Translations under genes and position numbers: made by a program
The notes under the pieces: generated by a model
Database searches by the model: none
The model's input: the letters and a program-made list of their open reading frames with translations, nothing else
Told to the model about the DNA's origin: nothing
Shown here: one piece after another, positions 18,996 through 58,073 of the stretch
How positions within the stretch are numbered: position 1 is the stretch's first letter
Layout: each line of letters starts with the position of its first letter
Origin: Natrinema versiforme
GTDB lineage: Archaea > Halobacteriota > Halobacteria > Halobacteriales > Natrialbaceae
Length of the DNA: 64,000 nucleotides
Assembly: GCF_005576615.1 (NCBI RefSeq)
Contig: NZ_CP040331.1
Location: 310,001 to 374,000 of the forward strand
Reading direction: 5' to 3'

Positions 18996-19295
18996 ATGAA
19001 CTGCCCATTTTGTGATGAGTTCAACAACCCAGGTGAGGACCGAGTGAAAGATCATATGGTCGACTCGCATCGGAGCGAACTTCCGAGTTTTACCGACTCA
19101 ATGAACTGTCAGCGCGAAGACTGTGGCGGAACTGTTCCTGCTGGTGCCCGTCGGTGCAACCTCAACGATCACGACCACGCGAGATATTTTGCTGGGATAA
19201 AACTGACTGAAGACGATGTCGTGACCCACATTAACGGTAGATCAATCGATAAGATTCGCGAAGATGGGTATATACCCGAGAAGGACGATGACTGA
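18996..19295 (+). CDS. Zinc-finger protein (C2H2-like plus CxxxxC)
   Basis: 99 aa. MNCPFCDEFNNPGED followed by HMVDSH forms a CxxC...HxxxxH finger; a second cluster (CQREDCGGTVPAGARRC) follows. TTATTAAT at 18968-18975 supports the start at 18996. Its end overlaps the next zinc-finger gene by 8 bases. Likely a nucleic-acid-binding plasmid protein. Confidence 0.6.
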   Translation: MNCPFCDEFNNPGEDRVKDHMVDSHRSELPSFTDSMNCQREDCGGTVPAGARRCNLNDHDHARYFAGIKLTEDDVVTHINGRSIDKIREDGYIPEKDDD

Positions 19296-19494
19296 CGGCA
19301 AATCCACCGATGTCCGAACCTATCCGTGCCCATCCCCCGACGACTGTCCGTTCACTGCTGGCGGTGCAGCGGAACTCCTCGAGCACGTCAACAGCGAGCA
19401 CGCCGGCGAGTACCAGCGCGATGATTGGCCAGACACGCCAGCTGGTCGGGCAGCTCGAGGGGCCGGCGACGAGGACGATGTCGACGACCAATAG
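19288..19494 (+). CDS. C2H2-type zinc-finger protein, 68 aa
   Basis: Starts MTDGKSTDVRTYPCPSPDDC; CPSPDDCPF then 12 residues then HVNSEH make a single finger, followed by GEYQRDDWPDT and an acidic tail. A close relative lies at 53461 on the other strand. The ATG overlaps the previous stop by 8 bases; an in-frame codon at 19264 would add a non-homologous extension. Confidence 0.65.
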   Translation: MTDGKSTDVRTYPCPSPDDCPFTAGGAAELLEHVNSEHAGEYQRDDWPDTPAGRAARGAGDEDDVDDQ

Positions 19495-19507
19495 GAGGAT
19501 AGTTTCG

Positions 19508-19816
19508 ATGGCTGACGAGGACGCCGGCCACGAACTCGCTGGTCGCGAAGAAACACTCGAGCGCCTTGAGGCCGCAGCCCGCGAGCGGTGGGGCGACGAG
19601 TGGGCGATCCGGGCGACGCACTTCGCGGACGGCACTACGCAGGCCTACGCCTTCCACTCGCGTGGCGTCGTCGACGACGATCGCGACGAGAAGACTCTCG
19701 AGCAAGAGCGGCTGTATACCGACGGCGACAGCGCGGTCTTCCAGCGCGTTCACATCCAGCGCGAGGGCGTCGTCGACGTGCTCGAGGAACGCGAATTCGA
19801 ACGCGATCACGACTGA
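19508..19816 (+). CDS. Hypothetical acidic protein, 102 aa
   Basis: MADEDAGHELAGREETLERL starts a helix, then beta-rich segment (WAIRATHFADGTTQAYAFHS) typical of a small alpha/beta domain, ending in basic-acidic repeats. 13 bases after the zinc-finger gene, same operon. No family recognised. Confidence 0.55.
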   Translation: MADEDAGHELAGREETLERLEAAARERWGDEWAIRATHFADGTTQAYAFHSRGVVDDDRDEKTLEQERLYTDGDSAVFQRVHIQREGVVDVLEEREFERDHD

Positions 19817-24798: not shown

Positions 24799-26007
24799 AT
24801 GCCATGGCTGCAGGACCAAGTAGAGAATGGGATCAAGAACATTCTTCAAGACTTCACTGACGCGCTTCTTGGTCTTGTGAACAATATTTATGAGTCACTC
24901 TTGGGACCAATTGTCGGTGTTCCAACCCCTGAATCAGATTCCGGATACATGGTAGTCAATACACCGGATAATGCGCCATGGGATAGCCTGTATCAGGATG
25001 TGTATTTAGCATATATTATGCCGTTAGCGATCATGCTGATTGTGATCGCGTTCGCGTTTATTGGACTTCGCGCAGGCTCGATGAGTTCGTATCGTCGAAA
25101 ACGCCTCATGAGGCGGTTAGGACTCGTGTTTATGGGAACGTTCGTCTGGTTTCCGTTGGTTTCGATTCCGCTTCAATTCGTTGACGCAGTTGGGATGACT
25201 ATCGCTCCTGTTGATGACATGTCTGCAGGACTTGATGGACTCATCCAGTCCTCGCTTGGCGGGATGTTTACGGTTCTGGCAATGGTCGTCATATCGAACT
25301 TTTTCTTAGTAGTTGCTGGATTTGTCGTGGCCCTCCGGTGGATTGCAATTTGTGTATTGACACCGGTAATGCCGCTATTGGGTGTCCTTTGGGCACTGGA
25401 TGTCTGGCCGTTCAGTCCCGCCGCAAATATGGCGCGGCAAGCTGCTGGAATCTATCCAGGATTGGTGCTTGCAGGGATACCGCCGGCGATCCTTTTTCGA
25501 CTCGGATGGGAAGTTGGAGGTCTCGAGTCCTCTGTGAAGGGTCTGTTTTCGTTGTTCATCGGATTGACCCTGATTCCTGCCGCGATCATCGCGATGATCA
25601 TGACCGTCTACTGGAGCAGCCCTGCTGTCCGGACGATCGCCCAGAAGAGTGTTACTGCCACGAATCCGGCATCGGCTGCTGCTGGGGCCAGCAAAGCAAA
25701 AGCTGCCTCTGGAAGTGCTGTGCGTGGTGCTCGAAATGTCCACCGGGGGTACGCAAACGGAAAGTACGGTCCTGTGACCAAAAGCGGCCAGACGAAACTC
25801 GAGAACAGCAACTCGAAAGCGTACAAGCTGGGTCAATCAGCGAACTCGACGAAAGCCCATGCGCGCCGGTACAATAACCTCCGAAAATCGGAGTCGGGCC
25901 GGATGCGCGACAAAGCCAAAGATGACGCCAAACAGGTCACACGGAAAACGTCGACCAAAGCCAAGCAAGGACTCAGAAACACCAAAGAAAAGGTCTCGAG
26001 GTGGTGA
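24799..26007 (+). CDS. VirB6/TrbL-like polytopic membrane protein
   Basis: 402 aa. About six hydrophobic segments between residues 70 and 275, including LRWIAICVLTPVMPLLGVLW, followed by a ~120-residue basic, Lys/Arg/Ala/Ser-rich tail that is probably cytoplasmic. The multi-helix core and long charged tail, next to VirB4, match the inner-membrane channel protein of type IV secretion systems. Starts at the base after the previous stop. Family assignment rests on topology and neighbours. Confidence 0.6.
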   Translation: MPWLQDQVENGIKNILQDFTDALLGLVNNIYESLLGPIVGVPTPESDSGYMVVNTPDNAPWDSLYQDVYLAYIMPLAIMLIVIAFAFIGLRAGSMSSYRRKRLMRRLGLVFMGTFVWFPLVSIPLQFVDAVGMTIAPVDDMSAGLDGLIQSSLGGMFTVLAMVVISNFFLVVAGFVVALRWIAICVLTPVMPLLGVLWALDVWPFSPAANMARQAAGIYPGLVLAGIPPAILFRLGWEVGGLESSVKGLFSLFIGLTLIPAAIIAMIMTVYWSSPAVRTIAQKSVTATNPASAAAGASKAKAASGSAVRGARNVHRGYANGKYGPVTKSGQTKLENSNSKAYKLGQSANSTKAHARRYNNLRKSESGRMRDKAKDDAKQVTRKTSTKAKQGLRNTKEKVSRW

Positions 26008-26012
26008 TTCAG

Positions 26013-29000
26013 ATGAGCTCGAATACAGCAGACAGCGAGTACAATGCGCGGAAAATCCACCAATCACTGGGTGGCACGACAGCGTTCTTCCAGGGCTATA
26101 CGATCGGCGAGCTCATGTTGTTTCTGACGGTGGCGTTCGTCACCGTCATCGCAGCAACGTTCGTCCCCTCTGCACTGACGATCCCGATTCTCGGGTTTGG
26201 AATTATGCTCACTATCCTTCTCTTTCTCCTCCATAAGGTCAAACCCGACTACCTCTGGCTCACCGAGTGGCTCGTCGCTCGATTCGGCTGGGCGATCAAA
26301 AACAAGGAATACACGCACGGTGGCGAGGACAATAGCGAAGTTCGCTATCTGACCCGTCTCAATCGGGTGTATCCACACGCTATCGAACGTACTGATGGTG
26401 CACTCGTCGGAGCGATGAAAGTTGAGCCAGCGAACATGGCCCTCGAGGACGACGAGGCCTGGGCGAAGGCCGTGCAGTCACTTTCAGAGTTCGTCAATTC
26501 GACTGTCGACTTCCCTGTGAAGATCTACATCACCAGCCGCGAAATCGACGAAGACGACATCGTTCGCGAACACCAGAATCGACTTGGCGATGCTGACGTT
26601 CGCTCGCGGCCAGTCCTGAAACGCCTCCTCGAGGAGTACGTTGCTGCCAATACGAACGAAAACGAGGATATCGACTCTGAAACGACGACAATACGAGAGT
26701 ACTATCTCATCACTGCGGTGACCGACAGCGACATCGAACAGTTCGATGAAACCGGTGATAGTGTACTGGCCTATCTCGCAGATGTACCAGTTCTCGGGCG
26801 ACTCTTCGGCCGCTTTCAGTCTGAGGAATTGAGTGAGTCCAAGCGCGACCAACTCAAAGAAGAGAAACTCGAATCACGACTCGCACAACTCCGCCGAGGT
26901 GGATCGTCGCTCTATCGGTGTTCGATCAGCCCCGTCGACGCGTATGACCTCGCTCGAGTCACGAAGGAGTACTGGACGTGCCAATCGCAAGACTACGCTG
27001 ACATGACGAGTGCGATTGGGACGTTCCCAGTCGTCTCTCACGGCATCAGCGATGGTGTGCCAGCGACGCCAGATCCAAAGGATGTCCTTGATTCGATGGA
27101 CGACAGCAGTGACGAAACTGCGGACTGGGAGTACTCCCTCGAGGATCTCGATGAAGAAGACACTGCTGACGACCCATCGGTTCCCGACGCGAATCGTCTG
27201 CCGGACACGTCGACGATGCACCAGTCAGTGGTTGCCCCGTCGTCGATCGATTGGGAGACAACCTACGCCGTGATCAACGACGAGACGTTCGTTCGCACCT
27301 TCTGGATTGAACAGTTCCCCGAAGAGCCCTCGGATGGCCTCCTTGAGCGACTCTTGCTCGAGACAGATTTGCAGACGGATCTCAGCATCCACCTTGATCC
27401 GTTCGATAGCCAATCGGCCCAGGACATGATGGCAGATTGGATTTCGGACTTGAAGATCAACCAGCACGATTCGAACAGTCTCAAAGCCGAAGACCTGCAG
27501 GAGGATATCGACCAGGCGAAGTACATGCGGTCGCTCGTTCGGGCGAACAAAGCCTCGTTCTATCGAGGCGGCGTATTCATCCGCTTGGCTGCCGAGAGCC
27601 AGCAGGAACTCGAGAACCAGACGACCCGGTTACGGTCAGTCATCAAGGACGCACCAGCCAACTGTACACTCAAAGTCGCCAGTCGATGGCAGGAACGTGG
27701 GCTTGCGACCGTCTCGCCGCTCGGACGGAATGAACTCGGTCGCGATCGAATGTCGACGCTGACCAACCAAGCGATTGGCGCGATGTTCCCATTTTCGTCG
27801 AACTACCAGATGATGGATGATGGAATCGAATACGGCTATCATGGTCACAACGGTTCTCCGATTCGCATCAACCCGTGGGACCTCGAGACCGGGCATAGTG
27901 AACTCGTCGTCGGGATGCCCGGTGCCGGGAAGACGTTCGGCGGGATCATGCGCCACCTGCGGATGATGAAGCGGCGCAACGACACGATGCTCGTCCTCGT
28001 TGATCCAGTCGGCGGCTTCCGTGGTATCGCGGATGCCCTGAACGCGAAGACAATCACTGTCGGCGGCGATACGAAACTGAACCCGCTCGAGATCCGTCAG
28101 ACGCCCCAGCACGTCCTCGAGTCCAGCGACGGGGTCTCTCCCCTCTCGGCGAAGAAAGACGAGGTCTACGCCGTTCTCGAGAACTTCCTTGACGCTCGTG
28201 ATATCGAACTCGGGGCCGAAACTGGTGTCCTCTCGTATGTGATCGACGAAGCCTATCGGCAGGCAGGGGTCGTTGAGGATGACGTCTCGACACACACGTC
28301 AGAGAACTCGCCGACGATGCAGGATGTCCACCAGATCCTTTGTGATATCGCTGAGAATCCGGACGAGCATAACATCGCTGCATCCGAATCCGCTCGCGAA
28401 CGGGCTGCACAGTACGCGGATGAACTCGCGATTGCCTTCCAGCCCTTCCGCGAAGGTGGCTCCTACGAAAATCTCTCACATCGCTCAGAGATCGATATTC
28501 TCGAGGGCGACAACAAGGTCGTCTACATCGATCTGGGCCAGATTGAGGGGAGTGCCTCGGGGATCGATCGGCAGACGTTCCTTATGCAATTGCTGCTGTC
28601 GACGATCTACCAGCAAGCAAAGAACACCCAACGGAACGTCGAACTCGCGATCGACGAGGCACACTACCTTTTCGAAGACCAGGCGAACCTTGACTTCCTC
28701 GAGACGGCGTTCCGTCACCAGCGCCACGCCGGCCTTCGAATGGTATTGCTCTCCCAGACCGCTCAGGAGTTTTACGAGACTGAGCAGGCCGAGAAGATCA
28801 TCGGGATGTGTCCGATCAAAGTCTTCCACAAACTCCCCGAATTGGACGATCGGACGGCCGACAAAATCGGGTTGACGAAAGAACAGCGCCAGTACATCAG
28901 AGGTGCCGACGCTGGGAAAGCGGACCTCGGCTACAGTCAATCACTCGTTCGCGTCGAGGAACACGGCACCTATCCTGTGCATGTGGTCGCAGACGACTTC

Positions 29001-29321
29001 GAAAAGCGAGTTATCGACTACGAACCCGAGGATCAGGCCTTCATCCAACAGGCAATGAACGACGAGTCAGCGGAACTGCTCGCTTTCGAGGAATTCGTCG
29101 AGACCGAAGCACAGCAAAACGCGCTTGCGACCCGCCTCGACATCACTGCTGAGACGGCGAGCAAACTCCTCGAGGAGGATCTCACCAAGACAGAAGTCCT
29201 TGATGCAGTCGTCGAACAGGCTCTTGAGACAGAGACGGACATCGAAGAGGCATCGATCCAGACCGATGACGGAGCGTCAGCTCCCGAACAGCGCACAACC
29301 GAACCCGAATATGACAACTAA
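26013..29321 (+). CDS. virB4: VirB4-like ATPase with fused VirB3/PrgI-like N-terminus
   Basis: 1102 aa. Residues 1-100 hold two adjacent helices (about 33-75) and a short loop resembling VirB3/PrgI; then a long acidic alpha-beta region; then the HerA/FtsK-type motor. Walker A is GMPGAGKT (634-641), Walker B LAIDEAH (878-884), followed by the sensor segment RMVLLSQTAQEF. It hydrolyses ATP to drive assembly and transfer in a type IV secretion machine. ATG 26013 is chosen; a GTG at 26001 overlaps the previous gene. Overlaps the next gene by 11 bases. Confidence 0.85.
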   Translation: MSSNTADSEYNARKIHQSLGGTTAFFQGYTIGELMLFLTVAFVTVIAATFVPSALTIPILGFGIMLTILLFLLHKVKPDYLWLTEWLVARFGWAIKNKEYTHGGEDNSEVRYLTRLNRVYPHAIERTDGALVGAMKVEPANMALEDDEAWAKAVQSLSEFVNSTVDFPVKIYITSREIDEDDIVREHQNRLGDADVRSRPVLKRLLEEYVAANTNENEDIDSETTTIREYYLITAVTDSDIEQFDETGDSVLAYLADVPVLGRLFGRFQSEELSESKRDQLKEEKLESRLAQLRRGGSSLYRCSISPVDAYDLARVTKEYWTCQSQDYADMTSAIGTFPVVSHGISDGVPATPDPKDVLDSMDDSSDETADWEYSLEDLDEEDTADDPSVPDANRLPDTSTMHQSVVAPSSIDWETTYAVINDETFVRTFWIEQFPEEPSDGLLERLLLETDLQTDLSIHLDPFDSQSAQDMMADWISDLKINQHDSNSLKAEDLQEDIDQAKYMRSLVRANKASFYRGGVFIRLAAESQQELENQTTRLRSVIKDAPANCTLKVASRWQERGLATVSPLGRNELGRDRMSTLTNQAIGAMFPFSSNYQMMDDGIEYGYHGHNGSPIRINPWDLETGHSELVVGMPGAGKTFGGIMRHLRMMKRRNDTMLVLVDPVGGFRGIADALNAKTITVGGDTKLNPLEIRQTPQHVLESSDGVSPLSAKKDEVYAVLENFLDARDIELGAETGVLSYVIDEAYRQAGVVEDDVSTHTSENSPTMQDVHQILCDIAENPDEHNIAASESARERAAQYADELAIAFQPFREGGSYENLSHRSEIDILEGDNKVVYIDLGQIEGSASGIDRQTFLMQLLLSTIYQQAKNTQRNVELAIDEAHYLFEDQANLDFLETAFRHQRHAGLRMVLLSQTAQEFYETEQAEKIIGMCPIKVFHKLPELDDRTADKIGLTKEQRQYIRGADAGKADLGYSQSLVRVEEHGTYPVHVVADDFEKRVIDYEPEDQAFIQQAMNDESAELLAFEEFVETEAQQNALATRLDITAETASKLLEEDLTKTEVLDAVVEQALETETDIEEASIQTDDGASAPEQRTTEPEYDN

Positions 29322-30513
29322 GACCATGACTATGCTCAACCGTTTCACGAAACTGCTTGGTTCATCGCCCCAGTACGAGGCGACGCAACTCGAGTTTGGA
29401 GAGAAGGGATCGTTCGTCCAGCAGCAAGCAGATACGCCAGGACTGCTCCTTCGGATCCGCCCCTACAAGGAGAACAATGGTGTCGTGGATGGGGCCGGCG
29501 TTCTGCAATCAGTTCACGACGTGACGATGAACTTTCGCGGGAAGAATACGAGCGATCACCACTCGTTCGAGGTCTGGTTCGATGAGGGCAAAATTTCGTT
29601 CTATATGCACGCTGCTACCGAGGCAGCCGCAGACAAGTTCCGACGGCGTGTCGGGAACAACTACGCGAACAGTGAGATTTTCCCTGTCGAAGAGGGCCAT
29701 GCGTTCCCGGTCATCGATTCTGACCAGTACGTCGCCGGTGCGTGGCTCGAGATGGAGAAAATTCCGTACTACCCGATCCGCCATCACAACAGCGAAGGCT
29801 TCGAGACGGATCCCTACGGCGAGATAACAAGCGAGATGCTGTCGCTCGACGAGAGTACAGTCGTTACACAGGTTATTTTCCGGCCTGCAAAGCAGTCGTG
29901 GACTGACGGCGACCGCTTCAAGCACAATAGCGTCGACGAACTCGCTCATGCACTTCGCCAAGGGACATCCGTAGGGTGGCTGAGTCCCCGAACACGACCG
30001 GCGAGCGCGAAGGACAAGCAGGCCGCAAAGACGATTGAACAGCAACGCGGGCAACAGGCGTTCCACGTGAATATTCGCGTATTGGCGGCCTCGAGTGAAC
30101 AGGCCGAGGCTGAGGCTCGAGCCCGCGGCGTCGCAGGGATGTTTAGGAAGTACTACAACGCGATCACGGAGCAGGGACTCGACGATAATCCAGTCTGGCA
30201 TCGCAACGAGCGAAAGCGGGCTGAACAGCTTCGACGATTCATCCACCGAATGCGTGATCGCGAATGGGTCGACCGGCATATGATCATGACCGTCGACGAA
30301 CTCGCCGGCGTCGCACATATCCCGAACGCAGAGATTGAGACGCCGAAGATCGACTGGCGATACACGCAGCGTGGTGATCGCCTCCCATCGGATGGGTCTC
30401 AACACCCATCTGACGAATCGCCGATTGATGGGCAGACACCAGCTGTGCCAGATGAGACAGCAGTCACCGTTGATGACTCTACTCGAGATCAGGAGGGATT
30501 TGATGGTATTTGA
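29311..30513 (+). CDS. Conserved partner of VirB4/VirD4-like ATPases
   Basis: 400 aa (or from ATG 29326). An N-terminal beta-rich domain (KNTSDHHSFEVWFDEGKISF) of the kind that precedes HerA-type motors, then helical segments to about residue 340 and an acidic tail. No Walker motifs. It lies between, and overlaps, the VirB4-like and coupling-protein genes, so it is probably their cytosolic adaptor. Neither function nor family name is known to me. Confidence 0.6.
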   Translation: MTTKTMTMLNRFTKLLGSSPQYEATQLEFGEKGSFVQQQADTPGLLLRIRPYKENNGVVDGAGVLQSVHDVTMNFRGKNTSDHHSFEVWFDEGKISFYMHAATEAAADKFRRRVGNNYANSEIFPVEEGHAFPVIDSDQYVAGAWLEMEKIPYYPIRHHNSEGFETDPYGEITSEMLSLDESTVVTQVIFRPAKQSWTDGDRFKHNSVDELAHALRQGTSVGWLSPRTRPASAKDKQAAKTIEQQRGQQAFHVNIRVLAASSEQAEAEARARGVAGMFRKYYNAITEQGLDDNPVWHRNERKRAEQLRRFIHRMRDREWVDRHMIMTVDELAGVAHIPNAEIETPKIDWRYTQRGDRLPSDGSQHPSDESPIDGQTPAVPDETAVTVDDSTRDQEGFDGI

Positions 30514-33500
30514 TCGGTTCTTTGGACCCGGTGAGGAGTCTTCGAATAGCGATAATGAGCATGAACCAGTAGATGATGCGTCCGGTGAAGAAATCCCCTC
30601 CACAGGTAGTGACAATCAGACAGAAACCAAGAACGCTGTCGCTGAGTCGTCTCCTGATCAGCAACCAAACTCCGACGGCGAGCAGTACCAAATCGTCGAT
30701 CAAAACACGACTCGTGTCGGTGGCAAGCCGGTTCTCACAGAGACAGCCAACGAAGGCACGGTTGCAGGCCCGTTCGTTCGAGAAATGTTCGAGGCCGGGA
30801 TGTACAATGCCCCTGCTCCACTCTGGATTGGCTACACGGAGGACCCCCAAACGGGCTTTCGTGAGGCCCCGCTCCGGTTTGACTCACTCTTCCGGCATAA
30901 CTGGATCGCTGGGACGACCGGCTACGGAAAGACGACTCAACTCCTGAATATGATGGTGCAGTGGGCGTATTCGGGCTACGGCTTCACGTACTTCGATCCG
31001 AAGGGCCGTGATTCTCGAGAACTGCTCCGGATGCTCCCCAAGCATCGCCTCGAGGACGTGGTCTGGATCGAGCCCGGGTCGACCACCCACGAGAACACGG
31101 TCGGGATGAACTTCCTCGAGGTACCCGACTGCGAGACGACTGAGGAACTCGAGAATGAGATCGAAAACCGGGTCGAGAACCTGAAAGCAGTCTTCGATAC
31201 CTCCGACTACTGGGGCATCAACATGGAAGCGATCACCGAGTCGATGGCTCGGGCGATGATGAAATCCGAGCAACCGTTTTCGGTCATCGATATGTATTTC
31301 ATCTTGCTGAATGCCGATCGACGGGAGGATTTCGCGCTCGATGTCGAGGACCCCTATATCAGAGAGTTCTGTCTCGAGATCGCGAATATGGAGGAGGAGA
31401 CGGTTCGACCACTTCTGAAACGGATCAAGTCGTGGGTTGAGAACTCGGTGATTCGTCGGATTATCGCTCACCGGGAGAGTACGATCAATTTCCGCGATAT
31501 CATTGAGAACGACCGAATCGTCATTGTCCGAACGCCAGTCGAGAACACGGATATCAAGAAGATGGTCACCCTCGGCGTGATGCGGAATTTGTGGAGTGCG
31601 ATTCAGCGGCGGTCATACGAACTCGATACCGATCCAGACCCCTACTTCGTTCTCTGTGACGAGTTCGACGATATCGCGAGCGACAATCTCGATATCGAGT
31701 CGATGCTCGCCCGTGCTCGATCGATGCGTCTCTCTGTGACCTTAGCCTCGCAGTATCCCTCTCAGTTCGATGAGGACACGCTGAAAGCGATGCAGAACAA
31801 CTGTGATAACCTCCTCACGTTCTCGGTCAACGACAGCGACGATGCCGAGTTGTTGATGAAACGCTTCCGTGATTACACAGCTGAAGACCTCATCACGACC
31901 GATCAGTTCAAAGTCTGGACGCGGATCCCGCTCTCGGGCGGGCGCTACTCTGAACCCGTCTTGATCCGGACGTTTCCGCCCTACCCGCCCCTTCGGGAAC
32001 CAGATGCTGTCGATCGAATCATCGAACAGAGTCTTGAGCGGTATGGGACTGATCCGCTGACGGACGCTGAAATCCTGCAAGATCTCATCTATAGCGATTC
32101 GAACGAAGCAGCGAACCCCAAGCAGATTCTTGGGGAGACGATGGCAGAAGCCGTTCGTGCAGTCCAGATTCGAGAGAGTGTGCGGGCGGAAAACGGCTGG
32201 GTCGATGTCACTGTCGTCGACGAGGAACTTGCGGCCCGTCTCGAGAATACCGAGAGTGAGATCGACGTTACCCCTGAAGACTTGCCTGACGTTCGTGAGG
32301 AATCCAGGTTGCTTGAGGTTATGCTACAGAACGACGATATCGTAGTTCGGCTCACTGACGACGGAGAAACAGTGGTCGAACCGGAGACAGGCACTGTCAG
32401 ATCTGCCGGTGGCTCTACACACGATGCAGTCCTCCTCGAGACGGAAACAGCGCTTACAGAGCGTGGGTTCAGTGTCGAAATCCTCGAGCAGGACGGAAGC
32501 GAGCAACCGGACGCCATCGCGACGCATCCAGATCACGACGTCGTGTTTAACATCGAGGCTGAGACAACGACGCCAGACCGACCCGTCAAGGTCTTGCAGA
32601 ATCTCAAGCGAGCCCACGAAGCAGATCGGATTCCGATCTTCGTCGTCCGTCCTGGTGACTCCGAGACAGAGTGGGCGACTCGGGTCGAGAATATCCTTTC
32701 GCCACCGCTGCAAGAACGAGCCGATGGCACTGAACAATTCTACAACTGCGACGAGGTCGTGACCTTCGGTGGTGGTGCGACCGCTCACGGTGGCGTTACT
32801 GCCGTTCGGCCCAAGACATCTGAGACGAATCGGACGGTTTGGACACGAGAGAATGGTGAGATCGTCCTTTCAGACGGTGAAACAGCGTTTGCCCGTGTTC
32901 CAGATGAGAGTACACTCTCGAAGGACAGTGTGCCAGCCTACTATAGCCATGATCGTGAAGCCGGGCAGTATACTGTCTACGAAGCTGGCGAAACCCATGT
33001 CTACGACTCGAGAGACGACTTTGAGGATGAATGGACGCCGATCAAACGGCCATTCCGACCTGCTGTTGACCTACCAGACTCGGATTATTCACGGGAGAGC
33101 TACCTCATTCTGATACTCTCTGACGATGAGCGTCCTGTACTCTTCCAGCAGGGCGAGACATACGGTTTGTCTGATTCGCCAACCGGTGAGGAACTATGGC
33201 CGGGCATCTCTTCAGGGAATCACTCTCGAGCAACGGAGTTGTCCTCATCAGTAGAGTCAGGTTCATCAGTATCGGAGCCAGTTGAGGTTGACCCAGACGG
33301 CGACGGCATTGAGGCGTTCGCAGCGATGTATATCAGAGAGGCGGATGGGGCACAAATTCCAAAGGCAGCACTGTTTCAGGCCTACTCGAGATGGACCGAC
33401 CAGCACGATATTGATGGAACAAACGCGAGCTGGTTCGGTCGGAAGCTTTCGAACGTCGTCGACTATGAGGATACCCGAGTCAGAGACGGTGACGATCTCG

Positions 33501-33556
33501 TGACTGTCTATGCCGGTATCAATCTGACCAGAGATGGATCAGAGTTCCTTGAGTGA
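30503..33556 (+). CDS. VirD4/HerA-like coupling ATPase with C-terminal wHTH
   Basis: 1017 aa. A ~60-residue acidic N-terminus, then the TraG/HerA motor: Walker A GTTGYGKTT (137-145), Walker B LCDEFDDI around D386-E387, and the sensor TLASQYPSQF. A middle section (about 600-850) is beta-rich with no assigned domain. The last ~90 residues (IPKAALFQAYSRW ... ASWFGRKLSNV ... VYAGINL) resemble the winged-helix end of phage and P4-type primases. It should escort DNA to the secretion channel. AGGAGGG before the ATG is a good RBS. No membrane helix is seen, unlike most VirD4. Confidence 0.75.
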   Translation: MVFDRFFGPGEESSNSDNEHEPVDDASGEEIPSTGSDNQTETKNAVAESSPDQQPNSDGEQYQIVDQNTTRVGGKPVLTETANEGTVAGPFVREMFEAGMYNAPAPLWIGYTEDPQTGFREAPLRFDSLFRHNWIAGTTGYGKTTQLLNMMVQWAYSGYGFTYFDPKGRDSRELLRMLPKHRLEDVVWIEPGSTTHENTVGMNFLEVPDCETTEELENEIENRVENLKAVFDTSDYWGINMEAITESMARAMMKSEQPFSVIDMYFILLNADRREDFALDVEDPYIREFCLEIANMEEETVRPLLKRIKSWVENSVIRRIIAHRESTINFRDIIENDRIVIVRTPVENTDIKKMVTLGVMRNLWSAIQRRSYELDTDPDPYFVLCDEFDDIASDNLDIESMLARARSMRLSVTLASQYPSQFDEDTLKAMQNNCDNLLTFSVNDSDDAELLMKRFRDYTAEDLITTDQFKVWTRIPLSGGRYSEPVLIRTFPPYPPLREPDAVDRIIEQSLERYGTDPLTDAEILQDLIYSDSNEAANPKQILGETMAEAVRAVQIRESVRAENGWVDVTVVDEELAARLENTESEIDVTPEDLPDVREESRLLEVMLQNDDIVVRLTDDGETVVEPETGTVRSAGGSTHDAVLLETETALTERGFSVEILEQDGSEQPDAIATHPDHDVVFNIEAETTTPDRPVKVLQNLKRAHEADRIPIFVVRPGDSETEWATRVENILSPPLQERADGTEQFYNCDEVVTFGGGATAHGGVTAVRPKTSETNRTVWTRENGEIVLSDGETAFARVPDESTLSKDSVPAYYSHDREAGQYTVYEAGETHVYDSRDDFEDEWTPIKRPFRPAVDLPDSDYSRESYLILILSDDERPVLFQQGETYGLSDSPTGEELWPGISSGNHSRATELSSSVESGSSVSEPVEVDPDGDGIEAFAAMYIREADGAQIPKAALFQAYSRWTDQHDIDGTNASWFGRKLSNVVDYEDTRVRDGDDLVTVYAGINLTRDGSEFLE

Positions 33557-33683: not shown

Positions 33684-33768
33684 TGTTCAGGGCAAATTTC
33701 CCGTTCAGGTCACGGAATTGGTACCTGTTCAGGGCAAAACCGCAGTACAGTGGCGGTGTTCAGGGCAA
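33684..33768 (+). repeat. Three 12-bp direct repeats before the PrimPol gene
   Basis: TGTTCAGGGCAA occurs at 33684-33695, 33726-33737 and 33757-33768, spaced 42 and 31 bases, close to four and three helical turns; a weaker CGTTCAGGTCA lies at 33702-33712. All are on the same strand in the 356-bp gap between coupling protein and PrimPol genes. Iteron- or operator-like. Upstream DNA (33557-33683) holds nothing recognised. Confidence 0.65.
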
Positions 33769-33912
33769 GTCGGCGCTCAAAACCAACTAGTATACAACGG
33801 GTTGCACCCGTTGGACAGGGTCACGGACAGTCTACCAGCCTACGGCATGTTTATCAGCACACTGATGGGTGGTATGCGACCAGATGGACGCGAAGTACGA
33901 GGCGGATCGGCG

Positions 33913-35169
33913 ATGTCTGAACAGACGGTTTCGGTACTCCCCAAGCAGTTACGTGAGCGTGACCAGTGGGTGTGTTGGCGAGAAGAATCTCGAGATGGGA
34001 AACCAACCAAGATCCCGGTGACACCAGGCAGTGGTGAGTTCGCGTCTTCAACGGATCCAGAGACATGGGCGTCGGTCGAAACCGCGCTCGAGTACGCCGA
34101 TTCGGGGGATGCAAATGGCATCGGGTTCGTGTTTACCGACAATGATCCCATTGTCGGCGTGGATCTCGATGATTGCCGAGACCCGAAGACCGAGACCGTC
34201 GACGATGCAGCGCAGGATATCATTGAGCGACTCGACTCCTATACGGAAATCTCCCCATCGGGAACTGGGTTTCATGTGCTCATCGAGGGAGAGCTCCCAG
34301 ACGGCCGGAACCGGCGTGGAAGTATCGAACTGTACGACACGGCCCGGTTTTTCACCGTGACTGGTGCCACCCTCGAGGAGATGCCCAGTCGCGTTGCTCG
34401 TCGACAGGATGCACTCGAGGCGATTCATCGTGAATACGTCCAAGACAGTGAGAGCGATGGAGCGTCCGAGTCAGGGTACCGTGGTGTGACTGACGAGCAG
34501 GCTTCGACGGACACAGCAGGCGATGTTGATGTTGACCTCGAGGACGAGGAACTGCTCGAGAAGGCTCGAAATGCGTCGAACGGTGAGAAATTCGAGCGAT
34601 TATGGCGTGGCTCGACTGCTGGGTACGAAAGCCAGTCAGAGGCCGATATGGCACTGTGCTGTCTGCTGGCGTTCTGGACCGGCGGCGACCACACTCGAAT
34701 GGATCGACTCTTCCGGCAGTCAGGGCTTCTCCGCGAAAAATGGGACGACGTCCACTATGCCGATGGATCGACGTACGGCGAAAAGACCATCGAACGAGCG
34801 ATTACAAGCACGTCTGAGTTCTACGATCCGGACGCTCGAGACGACTCGAGTGAAGCGAGTTCCAGACAGAACGAGTCGGCGATCACCGGCAGTCGTGACG
34901 AACCAGCGGAAAATCATGCATATCTGGTCGAGAAGAATCGACTGTTGACTGACCGCGTCGACGACCTCGAGGCTGCGCTCGAGGAGAAAGACGAACGCAT
35001 CGATGCACTCGAGGCGACCAACGAAGCGCTTCGAGAACAACTCAGAGACTGTCAGGAGACACTCGAGCGTCGTGATCAGGCTTCGAACCCCGAGATGGAT
35101 GAGGCCAGTGCTAATGAAGGCGACTCGATCTGGGGCCGTGCAAAGCAATTCGTTGGGGACGGCGACTGA
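33913..35169 (+). CDS. PrimPol-like replication protein
   Basis: 418 aa. N-terminal region (about 8-165) has the NrS-1-type primase/polymerase features: RDQWVCWR start, GVDLDDC metal motif, SPSGTGFHVLIEG and ELYDTARFFTVTG. A helical NrS-1-HBD-like segment (about 225-305: SQSEADMALCCLLAFWTGGD) follows, then an acidic linker, a coiled coil (about 340-400) and the end DSIWGRAKQFVGDGD. It could prime DNA synthesis on plasmid or transferred single strands. ATG 33913 is supported by alignment; an upstream open frame covers the repeats. A relic of its tail lies at 49850. Confidence 0.7.
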   Translation: MSEQTVSVLPKQLRERDQWVCWREESRDGKPTKIPVTPGSGEFASSTDPETWASVETALEYADSGDANGIGFVFTDNDPIVGVDLDDCRDPKTETVDDAAQDIIERLDSYTEISPSGTGFHVLIEGELPDGRNRRGSIELYDTARFFTVTGATLEEMPSRVARRQDALEAIHREYVQDSESDGASESGYRGVTDEQASTDTAGDVDVDLEDEELLEKARNASNGEKFERLWRGSTAGYESQSEADMALCCLLAFWTGGDHTRMDRLFRQSGLLREKWDDVHYADGSTYGEKTIERAITSTSEFYDPDARDDSSEASSRQNESAITGSRDEPAENHAYLVEKNRLLTDRVDDLEAALEEKDERIDALEATNEALREQLRDCQETLERRDQASNPEMDEASANEGDSIWGRAKQFVGDGD

Positions 35170-35362: not shown

Positions 35363-35638
35363 ATGTCCGAAGCTGAAACCAACAATGGTGATCCTGAGAT
35401 TGAACGAATCAACCTTCGGATTTCCCAGTCTTTCCGCGAGGTCGTTGATGAGACGTGGCGCGAGCGGGGATTCAATAGCCGAAGTGAGTTTATTCGCTAC
35501 GCACTGCGAGAGTCAGTGAATCATCCGGAGGGTGCTGGGTTCTGGAAGGACCTTGCAATTAGTGAAGCACAGTTTGATGACGGTGAGAGCCGCTCGAGCG
35601 AGGAAATCAAAGCAGCATATGGGTCCGACGACGAATGA
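35363..35638 (+). CDS. Ribbon-helix-helix antitoxin
   Basis: 91 aa. RINLRISQSFREVVDETWRE and GFNSRSEFIRYALRE form the RHH strand and two helices, followed by a toxin-binding acidic tail. As in other type II modules it would neutralise the downstream toxin and repress the pair. ATG 35363 is taken over ATG 35336 since the domain starts there. It overlaps the toxin gene by 20 bases. Confidence 0.82.
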   Translation: MSEAETNNGDPEIERINLRISQSFREVVDETWRERGFNSRSEFIRYALRESVNHPEGAGFWKDLAISEAQFDDGESRSSEEIKAAYGSDDE

Positions 35639-35912
35639 CGACGATTGGGAGTGGGCATTTTCGTCTCGAGCAGAAAACCAACTTGCGCAGTTACCTACAG
35701 AAACACAGGACCGAATCATCACGAAACTCGATGATGTCGTGTCCTCAGAGTGGCGCGAGCCAGCTGACTTCCTTGAGCCATTGACTAATTCGCCGTACAA
35801 GAAGTTACGAGTTGGGACCTATCGACTGGGGTGTCGGCTTCGATCGGAAGAACGCATCGTACGCGTGGAGAGCGTTCGGAAGCGAGACGGAGCATATTCA
35901 GCGGATGATTGA
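35619..35912 (+). CDS. RelE/ParE-superfamily toxin
   Basis: 97 aa with the RelE fold pattern: FSSRAENQLAQLPTETQDRI helices and LRVGTYRLGCRLRSEERIVR strands, ending in a basic VRKRDGAYS. ParE-type members block gyrase, RelE-type cleave mRNA; the sequence does not decide. Paired with the RHH antitoxin, typical plasmid stabilising unit. Confidence 0.82.
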   Translation: MGPTTNDDDWEWAFSSRAENQLAQLPTETQDRIITKLDDVVSSEWREPADFLEPLTNSPYKKLRVGTYRLGCRLRSEERIVRVESVRKRDGAYSADD

Positions 35913-38409: not shown

Positions 38410-39306
38410 ATGTATAGTAACAACTCGAGTAGCAAGGTCGTTACGGTCGATGAACAGGCGCTCAAACAGGCGGACGAGCAGGAAGTCGATGACGATAGCT
38501 TTCCGGTCGTCGACGAGATACCGGCATTCGAGGCAACGGTCGAGCAAGAGGTCCAAGCAAAGGTGGATGCGAACCACCCGGACGGGATCGTCGATACAAA
38601 CGACGACCGGATTCACGGTGTCACCCTCGAACAGGAAGAGCGGATTCAAGCCAGAGAAGCGGAACTCGAGCGGATCAGTGCACAGGCCGAGTTCGGACAA
38701 CAGCAGGGACGAGCAAAGCGGGCGCGAGACATCGCTGCACGACGAAGTGCAGAGCGACGTGAGCGATTTCAGAAGCGGGCAGGGAGTGTGGATCCGAGAG
38801 CGGATCCAGAGCGGCCGGATCCCCGGACGGACCTCACACGATCGCAACTGGCGGCCGTGAACGAGCAGTCGATACGGTTGGCCGAAAAGATCGATGGCTG
38901 GTCTCGAGCGGCGATCAGTCGACGGCTGGCCGAGGCGGTCGTCGACGGACAGGATCTTCCGAGTACGGTCGTCAGCGTGTTCGAGGAGTTGCAGACAGCG
39001 CCAGGACAGATCGTACCGATCGGGACACTCGAGGATGTGAGCCGACAGAAGGTGAGCATCGAGGGGCGTGTCGAGACACTCTGGGATCCATCGCATCCAA
39101 GCATCGCTCAAGTCGGACTCATCGCAGACGACAGTGGCCAGACTCGAGTGACGATCTGGGAGAAATCAGGCGCGCCGTGGATTAAGGAAGGCGAACAAGT
39201 ACGCATTCATGGGGCTGCACGGAACTGGTACGAGGGACGTGTCTCACTGGCCGTCACCGGCTGGAGCACGATTCAGTTCCCTGAACGCGGTCGATGGTGG
39301 GAGTAA
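38410..39306 (+). CDS. OB-fold single-stranded-DNA-binding (RPA-like) protein
   Basis: 298 aa. Acidic N-terminus, helical middle (ERRERFQKRAGSVDPRADP around 115-135), then a C-terminal OB fold (about 205-290): VSIEGRVETLWDPSHPSIAQ, VTIWEKSG, and VRIHGAARNWYEGRVSLAVT. It resembles RPA-type proteins used in plasmid replication. TGACTAACGCGGCCTTCTTTTTT after the stop could terminate transcription. Confidence 0.75.
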   Translation: MYSNNSSSKVVTVDEQALKQADEQEVDDDSFPVVDEIPAFEATVEQEVQAKVDANHPDGIVDTNDDRIHGVTLEQEERIQAREAELERISAQAEFGQQQGRAKRARDIAARRSAERRERFQKRAGSVDPRADPERPDPRTDLTRSQLAAVNEQSIRLAEKIDGWSRAAISRRLAEAVVDGQDLPSTVVSVFEELQTAPGQIVPIGTLEDVSRQKVSIEGRVETLWDPSHPSIAQVGLIADDSGQTRVTIWEKSGAPWIKEGEQVRIHGAARNWYEGRVSLAVTGWSTIQFPERGRWWE

Positions 39307-40055: not shown

Positions 40056-41327
40056 ATGAGCACAAATAAACCCCACCAGAATCTGGCCATTATCGGCCAC
40101 GTCGATCACGGGAAGAGTACGCTTGTAGGACGCCTCCTCTACGAGACGGGGAGCATACCCGAGCACGTCATCGAACAGCACCGCGAGGAAGCAGAGGAGA
40201 AAGGCAAGGGTGGCTTCGAGTTCGCCTACGTCATGGACAACCTCACCGAGGAACGCGAACGCGGTGTCACCATTGATATCGCTCACCAGGAGTTCTCGAC
40301 GGATACGTACGACTTCACCATCGTCGACACGCCCGGACACCGCGACTTCGTCAAGAACATGATCACTGGGGCCTCGCAGGCCGATCACGCCGTCCTCGTC
40401 GTCGCCGCTGACGACGGCGTCGCGCCCCAGACCCAGGAGCACGTCTTCTTGGCTCGGACCCTCGGGATCGACGAACTCATCGTGGGCATCAACAAGATGG
40501 ATATCCCCGATTACGAGGAGTCGACCTACAACGAAGTTGTCGAGGAAGTCAAGCAGTTACTCAAGCAGGTCCAGTTCAATACCGACGACGCATCGTTCAT
40601 TCCAGTTTCGGCCTTCGAGGGAGACAATGTTTCCGAGCACTCCGACAACACGCCCTGGTACGACGGTGAAACCCTGCTTGAGGCGCTAAACGATCTTCCC
40701 GAACCGAAGCCGCCAACGGACGCACCGCTGCGACTTCCGATCCAGGACGTCTACACGATTTCGGGTATTGGTACCGTCCCCGTCGGACGTATCGAGACCG
40801 GCCTCCTCAACACCGGCGACAACGTCTCCTTCCAGCCCAGCGATGTAGGCGGCGAGGTCAAGACAATTGAGATGCACCACGAAGAGGTGCCCAAGGCAGA
40901 ACCCGGTGACAACGTCGGATTCAACGTCCGCGGCATCGGCAAGGACGACATCCGACGCGGTGACGTCTGTGGCCCCGCCGACGATCCGCCAAGCGTTGCT
41001 GAGACGTTCCAGGCTCAGATTGTCGTCATGCAACACCCTAGCGTAATCACCGCAGGTTACACGCCAGTCTTCCACGCTCACACGGCACAGGTCGCCTGTA
41101 CGATCGAGTCGATCGACCAGAAGATCGATTCCTCGAGCGGCGAGGTCGCCGAGGAGAACCCCGACTTCATCCAGTCGGGCGACGCTGCTGTGGTCACCAT
41201 CCGACCGCAAAAGCCCCTCAGCATCGAGCCGTCCAGCGAGATCCCTGAACTCGGGAGCTTCGCCATCCGCGACATGGGTCAGACCATCGCAGCCGGCAAG
41301 GTCCTCGAAGTCCACGAGCGGACCTGA
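40056..41327 (+). CDS. tuf: Elongation factor 1-alpha
   Basis: 423 aa, full length. GTP-binding motifs: G1 GHVDHGKS (14-21), DTPGH (G3; Thr in place of the usual haloarchaeal Cys), NKMD (G4). Domains 2 and 3 follow, ending [14 protein letters not shown]. It delivers aminoacyl-tRNA to the ribosome. Here it stands alone, not next to rpsJ, amid relics, so it is probably an additional copy; it could also be the sole copy if this replicon is essential. GTATTTC at 40021-40027 could be its promoter element. Confidence 0.92.
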
Positions 41328-41590: not shown

Positions 41591-41954
41591 TGCTCCACGT
41601 CTAGCACAGGAAAGGGGACAAGTTCCGCGAGACACCAGCTCCGCGAGGACGTTCCCGTGAAAATTGTCAGCGACCGCTGTGACGTGTCCTCCAAATAGGA
41701 CGCCCTCATACTCGAGCAGTGCCGGGAGATCGCTGAGAGCTGTCGACACGAGCGGTGACCGTCGAGGCAATACCGAGATCGGCACCGAGACTGAGTGAGA
41801 ACTTCCTCTCAGCACTGGCTGCGGGATCTGCGTAAGTGTCGCGCGAAGAGATCCGGTGTCTCGAGAAACACCAGTCTCTGACCGGTGTTAGAGTGGTGTT
41901 TATCACCCCAGAAGCGGCGAAGGGGCTGATCAGTTGTCCTCTTCGGAGTTATCG

Positions 41955-42878
41955 ATGGCAACGAGAGACATCTACACGACTGCGTTTGACGAAGACGTCC
42001 AGACGACTGCAACTGACTGCCCGGACTGTGGCGGCAGCGTTCGAACAACTAATTGCGAGACGATCTGTGAGGACTGTGGACGCATCCTCGAGGAGACCCA
42101 GATAGACCGAGGACCAAACTGGGGTCGAAGTGACGAGCAAGGATCCAATAGACGAACCGGCGCACCGCTGACACCCACACGCCACGATCGCGGCCTCTCC
42201 ACTGAAATCGGATACAAGCGAGACGCGAACGGAAACACCCTCTCGAGTAGGAAGCGCCGACACCTGAACCGACTGCGTCGCGAACAGTCCCGTGCTCGGT
42301 GGCAGTCAAAAGCCGAACGGAACCTCGCCTACGGTCTCAGTGAAATTCGGCGGATCGTCGCGAGTCTCGGCCTCGCACAGAGTATCCGGAATCAGGCGTG
42401 TTCGCTGTTCCGAACGGCACAGTCCGAACAGCTCTGTCGCGGACGATCGCTCGAGGCGGTGGCTGCAGCCAGTGTCTACGCCACGTCTCGGTGTAACGGA
42501 CTCGGACGATCACGGGCCGAAGTCACAGCCTGTGCACGCTGTGATCAGCAGAGACTCACCACTGCCTACAACGCGATGAACGTCGAACTCGAGCTACCGA
42601 CACAGCCGATTGCAGCAACGGATCGGATTCCGAGGCTTGCGACAGAACTCGAGGTTCCAGATCATGTTCGTCGACGAGCACTCAAACTCGCACAGCAGGC
42701 ACGCGAACGCGGACTGACGATCGGCTGCCGGCCGAGTGGCGTCGCAGCGGGCTGTCTCTATCTCGCTGCCCAGCGCGTCGGCTTGTGTCTCTCGCAACAG
42801 CGGATCGCCGGTATCGCAGGCACATCACCGAACACGCTCCGCAGTCGGCGAGACGACTTACTCGAGATCGATACCTGA
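41955..42878 (+). CDS. tfb: Transcription initiation factor B (TFB)
   Basis: 307 aa. N-terminal zinc ribbon C22-x2-C25 ... C38-x2-C41, a linker with RLRREQSRARW, then two cyclin-like repeats (about 105-195 and 205-300). Both are standard TFB length, though the second repeat carries Cys-rich ACARCDQQRLT. It recruits RNA polymerase to TATA/TBP. Extra plasmid TFBs can alter promoter choice. ATG 41955 is preferred to an upstream ATG with seven more codons. A fragment of another TFB lies at 51405. Confidence 0.9.
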   Translation: MATRDIYTTAFDEDVQTTATDCPDCGGSVRTTNCETICEDCGRILEETQIDRGPNWGRSDEQGSNRRTGAPLTPTRHDRGLSTEIGYKRDANGNTLSSRKRRHLNRLRREQSRARWQSKAERNLAYGLSEIRRIVASLGLAQSIRNQACSLFRTAQSEQLCRGRSLEAVAAASVYATSRCNGLGRSRAEVTACARCDQQRLTTAYNAMNVELELPTQPIAATDRIPRLATELEVPDHVRRRALKLAQQARERGLTIGCRPSGVAAGCLYLAAQRVGLCLSQQRIAGIAGTSPNTLRSRRDDLLEIDT

Positions 42879-51478: not shown

Positions 51479-51934
51479 CATGACTTGCGGTAAGTACAAA
51501 GGAGTACTGATCACTCAAGAGAACTCAAAGAAGTACGCGACGGGAAGGAATTGCACCCTCGGCACCCCCGTGGAACGGGCGTGTGTTACGCTACACCACC
51601 GTCGCACTGTCTGCAACGGTACTATCGCACGTATCAGGAAAGGTTATTTAGCCGATACCGGCGCGTAAACCGCCACCATCTTGTTGCCGTGGGCCGCCGA
51701 GAAGTCACAAACCACTGTTCACTACAGCTGGGTACTGAACGCACTGTGAGTGATCAAGGAACGGCGGCCATCGAATCGTCTCATGGTTGGGCCGGTGAAA
51801 CGGTTGATGACCGCCACTCTATGGGAGGGACTGGATCCGATTGTAGAGGAGTACTGCATACACAGAATTTTTATACCGGTATTGAAATTCGAGCATTAGA
51901 ACAGGGAGCGAGCAGCGGTAACGACCCTTGTTGA

Positions 51935-56789: not shown

Positions 56790-58073
56790 CTATGCCAGGT
56801 CTTCCAACCGGCTGTCCCGAAGCACAGATTTCAGCACGATTCCAGTGTCCTGAACCAGCCGATGCTCCAGATAACTGCCCTCACCTCGACCGCCACCAGT
56901 CCGAGTTGATTCAACGACACCGAGGAACGCCTGCTCTTTCAACAGTTCATAGACGCGATGTTCGCTGAGGATTTTTGCGTCGGCTTTCTCTGCCGTCGCT
57001 TGATAACGTTCGTAAATCCGGTTCGTCGAAAATCCGTCCTCATTCGGATTCTCTTCGGTGAGCAGCGCAAGGGAATAGAGGATGAATTTGACCTGCGTCG
57101 TCGATCCTCGTAGCAGTTCCTCGAATCGATCGATTTCAGCCCACTCTTGGGCATCACGAACGTGCTCCTCGACGACCATATCGACGTTTTCTCGCTCAGC
57201 AAGTTCGCCAGCGTGACGGAGAATTTCGATGGCCTTTCTGGCGTCACCGTGTTCCTGAGCGGCTAATGCTGCAGTCAGGGGGATCACGTCATCAGAGAGA
57301 ACTCCCTCGTGGAACGCGTCTCGACGGTGCTTCATAATCTCGCGCAGTTGGTTCGCATCGTAGGGTTGGAAGACGAACTCCTCCTCACGAAGACTGGACT
57401 TGACGCGCTCGTTCAACTGGTCCCGGTACTCGATCTTGTTGCTGACTGCGATGACGCCTAAGTGGCAGTCCGCTTTCCCCGATTCGCGAGCACGCGACAG
57501 TTGCATGAGTATATCGTCGTCATCGAGTCGATCCACCTCGTCAAGGATGATAATAACTGACTCGTAGGCGGTATCCAAAATATCCCAAAGATAGTCGTAG
57601 TATTCACCACTCCCAATTCCTGCCCGTGGAATATCAAAGTCAGTCTCGTCCGTCTCGTTGAGTGTACGGGTCACCGTCCTAGCAACACGCGTCTGCGTAT
57701 TGTGCTGCGCGCAGTCAACGTAAACCGAGCCAACGGACACACCGTTCGACTCCGCAGCTCGGCGAGCTCGTTCGGTAACGTGGCGAGCAACCAGCGACTT
57801 CCCCGTACCCGTTTTTCCGTAAATAATCACGTTGTTGGGCGGATCGCTACGAATGATCGGCCTGAGTTCAGCGGCAACAGCCTTGATCTCGCCATCACGA
57901 CCGACGATACGTCCACTTTCAGGAACATGGCCTACTTTCAGCAGTTCCTTCCGAGCGAAAATGCTGGCACGGTCAGGGTCGTCTTCATCTAAGTTAAAGA
58001 GGGGATCGTCGGAAGGGTCCTCGTAGCCGCCGTCGAAGTCAGAGAGTTGGGATGGTTCCTCAGCCATCAACAT
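56790..58073 (-). CDS. cdc6: Orc1/Cdc6 replication initiator
   Basis: 427 aa. AAA+ ATPase: Walker A GKTGTGKS, Walker B IILDEVDRLDDDD, sensor-1 GVIAVSNKIEYRD, then lid and a C-terminal winged helix (ILSEHRVYELLKEQAFLGVV). It binds origin repeats next to it and loads replicative helicase. Start 58073 (MLMAEEPS) fits TTAAG on the minus strand 26-30 bases upstream; ATG 58067 is in frame. Complete length. ORB-like repeats on both sides strongly suggest it starts replication of this replicon. Confidence 0.93.
   Translation of the reverse strand: MLMAEEPSQLSDFDGGYEDPSDDPLFNLDEDDPDRASIFARKELLKVGHVPESGRIVGRDGEIKAVAAELRPIIRSDPPNNVIIYGKTGTGKSLVARHVTERARRAAESNGVSVGSVYVDCAQHNTQTRVARTVTRTLNETDETDFDIPRAGIGSGEYYDYLWDILDTAYESVIIILDEVDRLDDDDILMQLSRARESGKADCHLGVIAVSNKIEYRDQLNERVKSSLREEEFVFQPYDANQLREIMKHRRDAFHEGVLSDDVIPLTAALAAQEHGDARKAIEILRHAGELAERENVDMVVEEHVRDAQEWAEIDRFEELLRGSTTQVKFILYSLALLTEENPNEDGFSTNRIYERYQATAEKADAKILSEHRVYELLKEQAFLGVVESTRTGGGRGEGSYLEHRLVQDTGIVLKSVLRDSRLEDLA

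Follow-up and report, generated by a model that had tools for sequence, protein, structure and literature searches.

The Streptomyces transfer protein TraB recognises TRS repeats through a C-terminal winged helix. It is a hexameric transfer ATPase, and the TRS are 8-bp repeats that lie at the clt locus of the plasmid (PMC4170104). For NrS-1 polymerase, the priming site has been published as TTTGGTTA (PMC8718748). Archaeal conjugative plasmids are reported to be devoid of recognisable relaxases (PMC9905601), and for the start of transfer in such plasmids a candidate site, a candidate reader domain and a candidate priming enzyme can be named at the locus described here. This locus lies in a 64,000-nucleotide stretch of Natrinema versiforme DNA (NZ_CP040331.1, positions 310,001 to 374,000), hereafter the window. 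Like TraB and clt, it combines a transfer ATPase with short repeats at a plasmid locus, and TraB/clt is its closest functional analogue. The literature that we searched on NrS-1-type haloarchaeal polymerases and haloarchaeal iteron origins holds nothing on this locus, and nowhere in the whole, incomplete body of literature searched did we find a coupling ATPase that carries a P4/D5-type origin-binding domain beside matching iterons.

Repeats and a conserved core between the T4CP and PrimPol genes

The repeats lie, together with a conserved core, in the gap between the gene of a type IV coupling ATPase (T4CP) and that of a PrimPol:

30503 to 33556, plus strand: VirD4/TraG-like T4CP, 1017 aa
33557 to 33912: 356-bp gap holding array and core
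33684 to 33695, plus strand: iteron 1, TGTTCAGGGCAA, exact copy, -95 from the core
33702 to 33713, plus strand: iteron 2, degenerate CGTTCAGGTCAC, kept in relatives, -77 from the core
33726 to 33737, plus strand: iteron 3, TGTTCAGGGCAA, exact copy, -53 from the core
33739 to 33750, plus strand: spacer motif ACCGCAGTACAG between iterons 3 and 4, conserved (alignment by eye)
33757 to 33768, plus strand: iteron 4, TGTTCAGGGCAA, exact copy, -22 from the core
33779 to 33815, plus strand: core, AAAACCAACTAGTATACAACGGGTTGCACCCGTTGGA, 37 bp, conserved in relatives
33783 to 33787 and 33810 to 33814: outer inverted repeat of the core, CCAAC and GTTGG
33795 to 33802 and 33806 to 33813: inner hairpin of the core
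33913 to 35169, plus strand: NrS-1-type PrimPol, 418 aa, with a helix bundle domain (HBD) at residues 241-306

The PrimPol start was taken as the ATG at 33913, and the in-frame ATGs at 33865 and 33874 are possible starts. The T4CP matches the Pfam families TraG-D_C (25.6 bits, cut-off 22) and TrwB_AAD_bind (22.4, cut-off 20.5); a Pfam scan of the window PrimPol found no SF3 helicase domain.

A check of the sequence bore out the three exact 12-bp repeats, spaced 42 and 31, that a preliminary description had placed here. The degenerate iteron 2, at offset +18, completes a four-copy array before the core, and the offsets 0, 18, 42 and 73 are unchanged in relatives with the same repeat. Exact copies of TGTTCAGGGCAA occur three times in the whole 4.67-Mb genome, all in the array, and none of 3000 dinucleotide shuffles of the gap contained any 12-mer three times. 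The spacer motif has counterparts, aligned by eye, in family B (ATCGCATGACGG) and in families E and J (ACCACCAGACGG). The repeats had also been described as helically phased. This is approximately so in the window, but other repeat families are spaced 44/30 or 42/32 at the same places, and because spacing differs by 1-2 bp among families we dropped phasing as evidence.

The core, AAAACCAACTAGTATA...GTTGG with variants, is common to almost all loci; family B cores are without the GTTGG arm. Its outer arms change together (CCGAC...GTCGG, ACGAC...GTCGT, and a G-C outer pair elsewhere), and these concerted changes exceed those in shuffles and in slid controls. Paired changes are also seen in the inner hairpin, whose folding beats shuffles (z -3.6). 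The bottom strand of the core, CTAGTTGGTTTT, has TTGGTT in common with the NrS-1 priming site, a short match, and we put forward only tentatively that the core might be the PrimPol priming site.

Distribution and repeat families

Related loci were gathered in three ways: by PrimPol, by the array pattern and by the core pattern. The arrangement of array, core, T4CP gene and PrimPol gene recurs across Halobacteria (about 75 loci, 18 examined plasmids). Homologous gaps, in which the preliminary description had proposed to look for repeats, do hold them, with conserved geometry, across this class, and the same repeat with the same spacing is found upstream of PrimPol in other genera. Altogether 11 distinct repeat families take up this position ahead of the same core and PrimPol, among them TGTCCACGCAGA, TGTTCCACCCA, TGTTACGGCA, TGTCCGGGGTAA, TGTCCAGGGAAA, TGGTCAGGGGAA and GGTTACGACAG; families C, D and J, for instance, all precede the same core-PrimPol module, and the core travels with PrimPol when the repeats swap. 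Two array geometries can be distinguished: group I, the window's type, has direct repeats and group II has mixed direct and inverted repeats. One strict form of the core is present in 36 of 391 genomes of the class. When the core was searched for blindly and 30 loci were examined, a T4CP winged-helix gene lay upstream in every one and a PrimPol was detected downstream in 28. We dropped the idea that the core is a recombination or integration site, as the upstream swaps in L022 and L034 look, on inspection, like transposase insertions at the core.

A second complete locus (L103, L298; G000:C3:459348), whose iterons are of family B (TGTCCACGCAGA) and whose winged helix matches them, lies on the same 492-kb contig as the window's, in the same orientation and 115 kb apart; its T4CP motor is ~96% identical to that of the window over the part compared. 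In L013, a solo array stands without an adjacent T4CP, and a matching family B winged helix is encoded elsewhere in the same genome, as expected of a mobilisable site (one case only). In NZ_CP095399.1 (L124), another operon, which contributes an ATPase, a primase and primase-associated genes of its own, has replaced the T4CP; at about 19187-19640, a remnant frame holds an intact family A winged helix that adjoins family A iterons.

The repeat family follows the C-terminal winged helix of the T4CP

The C-terminal end of the T4CP carries a domain related to origin-binding domains (OBD):

33308 to 33550, plus strand: Pox_D5/P4-OBD/RFX-type winged helix of the T4CP, proposed iteron reader
about 33425 to 33451: putative recognition helix of the winged helix, ASWFGRKLS

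The AlphaFold2 model of this domain is a confident winged helix (pLDDT 85). Among solved structures, the RFX DNA-binding domains come nearest in fold (Z 12.0 and 11.6), followed by the phage P4 origin-binding domain (1ka8, Z 9.5) and the C-terminal domain of ASFV PrimPol (7.7). A winged-helix profile compared with the sequences of solved structures matched RFX, weakly, and Pfam Pox_D5 was assigned to 39 of 43 family members (at E values of 0.1 or below, the lowest being 1.6e-9), with a weak score for the winged helix of the window (E 0.045). Among the members of the phylum that were sampled, Halobacteria had the long T4CP frames (about 900-1570 aa), and in the other classes the match fell in frames of at most about 870 residues. 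The one read, in L291, holds by inspection PrimPol, HBD, SF3 helicase and winged helix in one chain; judged from the sequences, the haloarchaeal system looks like an initiator of the L291 type that was split, with PrimPol-HBD in one gene and the origin-binding domain on the coupling ATPase.

The repeat family tracks the last ~80 residues of the T4CP, and neither PrimPol nor the ATPase motor. Within group I, repeat sequence distance correlated with winged-helix distance at r=0.58 (0.79 as a partial correlation on the ATPase, p=0.0005, n=28), against 0.04 for the T4CP ATPase and a weak 0.14 for PrimPol. In sliding windows, r peaks at 0.90 in the final 60 residues of the T4CP; the N-terminus of PrimPol, about equally near the repeats on their other side, gives 0.34. 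Parsimony on the 11 families gave 10 changes, the theoretical minimum, on the winged-helix tree versus 24 on the PrimPol tree. Over 45 common rows the counts were 9 for the winged helix, 16 for the ATPase, 18 for PrimPol and 17 for the length-matched PrimPol residues 1-80, and shuffled family labels gave at least 23. In the WFxRKL motif and ahead of it, the residues are specific to each family. From the first base of the core onward, locus L004 is 95% identical, yet it has other iterons and another winged helix.

PrimPol and an RHH protein had been named earlier as candidate binders of the repeats, and both were rejected: the repeat family does not co-vary with PrimPol, and the RHH gene belongs to a toxin-antitoxin pair that is not consistently annotated near the locus, none being annotated beside it in several other plasmids with array and core. 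The C-terminal winged helix of the T4CP upstream, a candidate absent from the preliminary description, is the likely reader, and this domain very probably binds the iterons physically.

As winged helix and iterons are only ~130 bp apart, part of the co-variation may reflect joint block recombination. In the extreme, another factor would read the array, and array and winged helix would merely be swapped as one block. The correlation indeed climbs gradually across the last ~200 residues of the T4CP and recombinants are visible among the loci. PrimPol, however, lies equally near in the opposite direction without co-varying, the families are convex on the winged-helix tree only, and the winged helix is of an origin-binding type, which together make linkage alone improbable. 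Still less credit is due to the earlier proposal that the repeats are operators through which the PrimPol promoter is regulated. The iterons are upstream of PrimPol and a TATA-like TTTATC stands about 60 bp before its ATG; but the array is 145-230 bp 5' of the start codon with the conserved core between, and neither the concerted changes in the core's inverted repeat nor reading by a T4SS ATPase suits a plain operator.

Gene neighbourhood and the kind of origin

The neighbouring genes bear on the kind of site:

24799 to 26007, plus strand: operon protein with multiple membrane spans, VirB6/TrbL-like by appearance only (no Pfam match)
26001 to 29321, plus strand: VirB4-like ATPase (NF045971, 1e-52)
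29311 to 30513, plus strand: operon protein between VirB4 and T4CP, no confident family by profile comparison
35363 to 35912, plus strand: RHH antitoxin/ParE-like toxin pair, downstream of PrimPol
38410 to 39306, plus strand: OB-fold protein, probably ssDNA-binding (Pfam match just under cut-off)

The idea that the protein at 29311-30513 corresponds to the N-terminal half by which group II T4CPs are longer was rejected (E=0.02 only). Regulator genes, too, lie downstream of PrimPol. The window further holds a complete gene for an elongation factor 1A/EF-Tu-like GTPase (40056-41327; Pfam 1e-62), in a plasmid-like region, a TFIIB-family gene (41952-42878) and a lone tRNA-Gly (tcc) gene on the minus strand (51535-51606), a possible integration site. 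TFB or TBP genes recur near the locus in other plasmids (L124-L128).

The T4CP and VirB4 genes are adjacent to the array. In 16 of 16 plasmids, VirB4/T4CP lie upstream of a core and the OB-fold protein downstream, co-oriented, so that the array divides the transfer genes from a leading region with SSB-type and toxin-antitoxin genes. We consider a transfer role of the array probable, and roughly twice as likely as replication; in favour of transfer, the reader would be the coupling ATPase inside a VirB4 operon. Against transfer we counted that a P4-type OBD and a PrimPol are replication parts, and that the scan of the operon and downstream proteins turned up no relaxase. With these points included, we lean slightly towards an archaeal transfer origin, an oriT analogue, in which the array provides specificity iterons read by the coupling ATPase and the core is the site of opening, nicking or priming. 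The more specific version, a relaxase-independent origin at which a VirD4-like ATPase with an acquired P4/D5 origin-binding domain reads family-specific iterons and PrimPol primes at the shared core, falls just short of an even chance.

In this transfer origin, the array would be the specificity part of a site that initiates transfer in a large family of haloarchaeal T4SS plasmids. Recognition of the iterons by the winged helix would seat the ATPase ring on its own plasmid, a strand would be opened or nicked at the core (CCAAC...GTTGG with the inner hairpin), and the cognate NrS-1-type PrimPol would prime there. The leading region, with PrimPol, the toxin-antitoxin genes and the OB-fold protein of ssDNA-binding type, would enter first and the T4SS genes last. 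Joint swapping of winged helix and iterons would create a new transfer specificity and leave the remaining machine unchanged.

The main rival is a vegetative replication origin, at which T4CP-OBD and PrimPol would form a split P4/D5-type initiator with a T4CP-like motor; the iterons would load the motor and PrimPol would prime at the core. The OBD is homologous to P4/D5 initiators, a relative with PrimPol, HBD, SF3 and PoxD5 in one protein exists (L291), the short direct repeats in a conserved array are as in iteron origins (oriV), and related PrimPol proteins, under the annotation DUF927 or P4-family primase, are encoded on small haloarchaeal plasmids. In NZ_CP026312.1, moreover, the cumulative GC-skew minimum (about 9840) is 5 bp from the core. 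Of 15 single-core plasmids, four had such a minimum at the core or close to it, one of them within 5 bp; striking in the first five plasmids, the signal weakened as the set grew to 16, and we dropped it as proof of replication. In most plasmids the minimum is elsewhere, often at Orc, and all 18 plasmids tested have Orc1/Cdc6 genes. Loci of the same family co-reside in genomes (9 of 26 pairs versus 3.5 expected, although some may be integrated or decayed), which gives no sign of incompatibility, and the window's own contig carries two loci. The site is regularly at the end of a T4SS operon and occurs on chromosome-sized contigs as well. No strongly AT-rich unwinding element was found beside the iterons: the core is 47% AT, and the best 40-bp stretch of the gap (67.5% AT) is at the gap's far end. 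We regard a vegetative origin as less likely than transfer, though as its most serious competitor.

Two of the small plasmids with related PrimPol proteins, NC_019975.1 (12.9 kb) and NZ_CP119995.1, may carry relatives of the ancestor of the split system. The window's contig has six Orc1/Cdc6 matches above the curated cut-off, one of them in the window (56790-58073, minus strand, about 23 kb from the array), which a conventional origin may adjoin.

Of the roles first suggested for the repeats, iterons of a replication or a transfer origin and operators, the last has thus become unlikely; that they are iterons of an origin is well supported by the conserved geometry, the conserved core and the co-evolving DNA-binding domain, with transfer favoured.

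Comparison with known systems

The named components occur across haloarchaea and yield sharp predictions on binding specificity and on mobilisation in trans. Among plasmid records with a PrimPol match, 134 of 136 are typed 'non-mobilizable', and a search by core and winged helix could reclassify many such haloarchaeal plasmids.

As in the TraB/clt system, the C-terminal winged helix of a transfer ATPase appears, from predicted fold and co-variation, to match nearby repeats. TraB, however, is FtsK-like, acts free of a T4SS and moves dsDNA, whereas the ATPase here is VirD4/TraG-like (TraG-D_C/TrwB) and comes with VirB4; in addition, the haloarchaeal winged helix belongs to the Pox_D5/P4 type, and the locus includes a PrimPol together with a conserved core. 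Phage P4 alpha and D5-type initiators share this type of winged helix (1ka8, Pox_D5) and likewise have repeats next to the gene and a primase partner, but P4-type and similar proteins combine primase, SF3 helicase and winged helix in one chain, whereas here the T4CP carries the winged helix and a separate PrimPol lacks SF3. NrS-1 polymerase (PrimPol-HBD-SF3) has the NrS-1-type HBD (PF22763) in common with the window PrimPol, which does not have its helicase domain. Haloarchaeal integrated fusexin elements with HerA, VirB4 and TraG/VirD4 have similar T4SS genes in the same host class; no fusexin was identified at the window locus, and the parts of that report consulted describe no origin for the elements (PMC9259645). 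With bacterial oriT/relaxosome systems the locus shares its position between the transfer genes and a leading region that holds toxin-antitoxin and SSB-type genes (PMC11541004), and differs in that no relaxase was found among the proteins scanned. We do not claim membership in oriT or oriV proper for the system.
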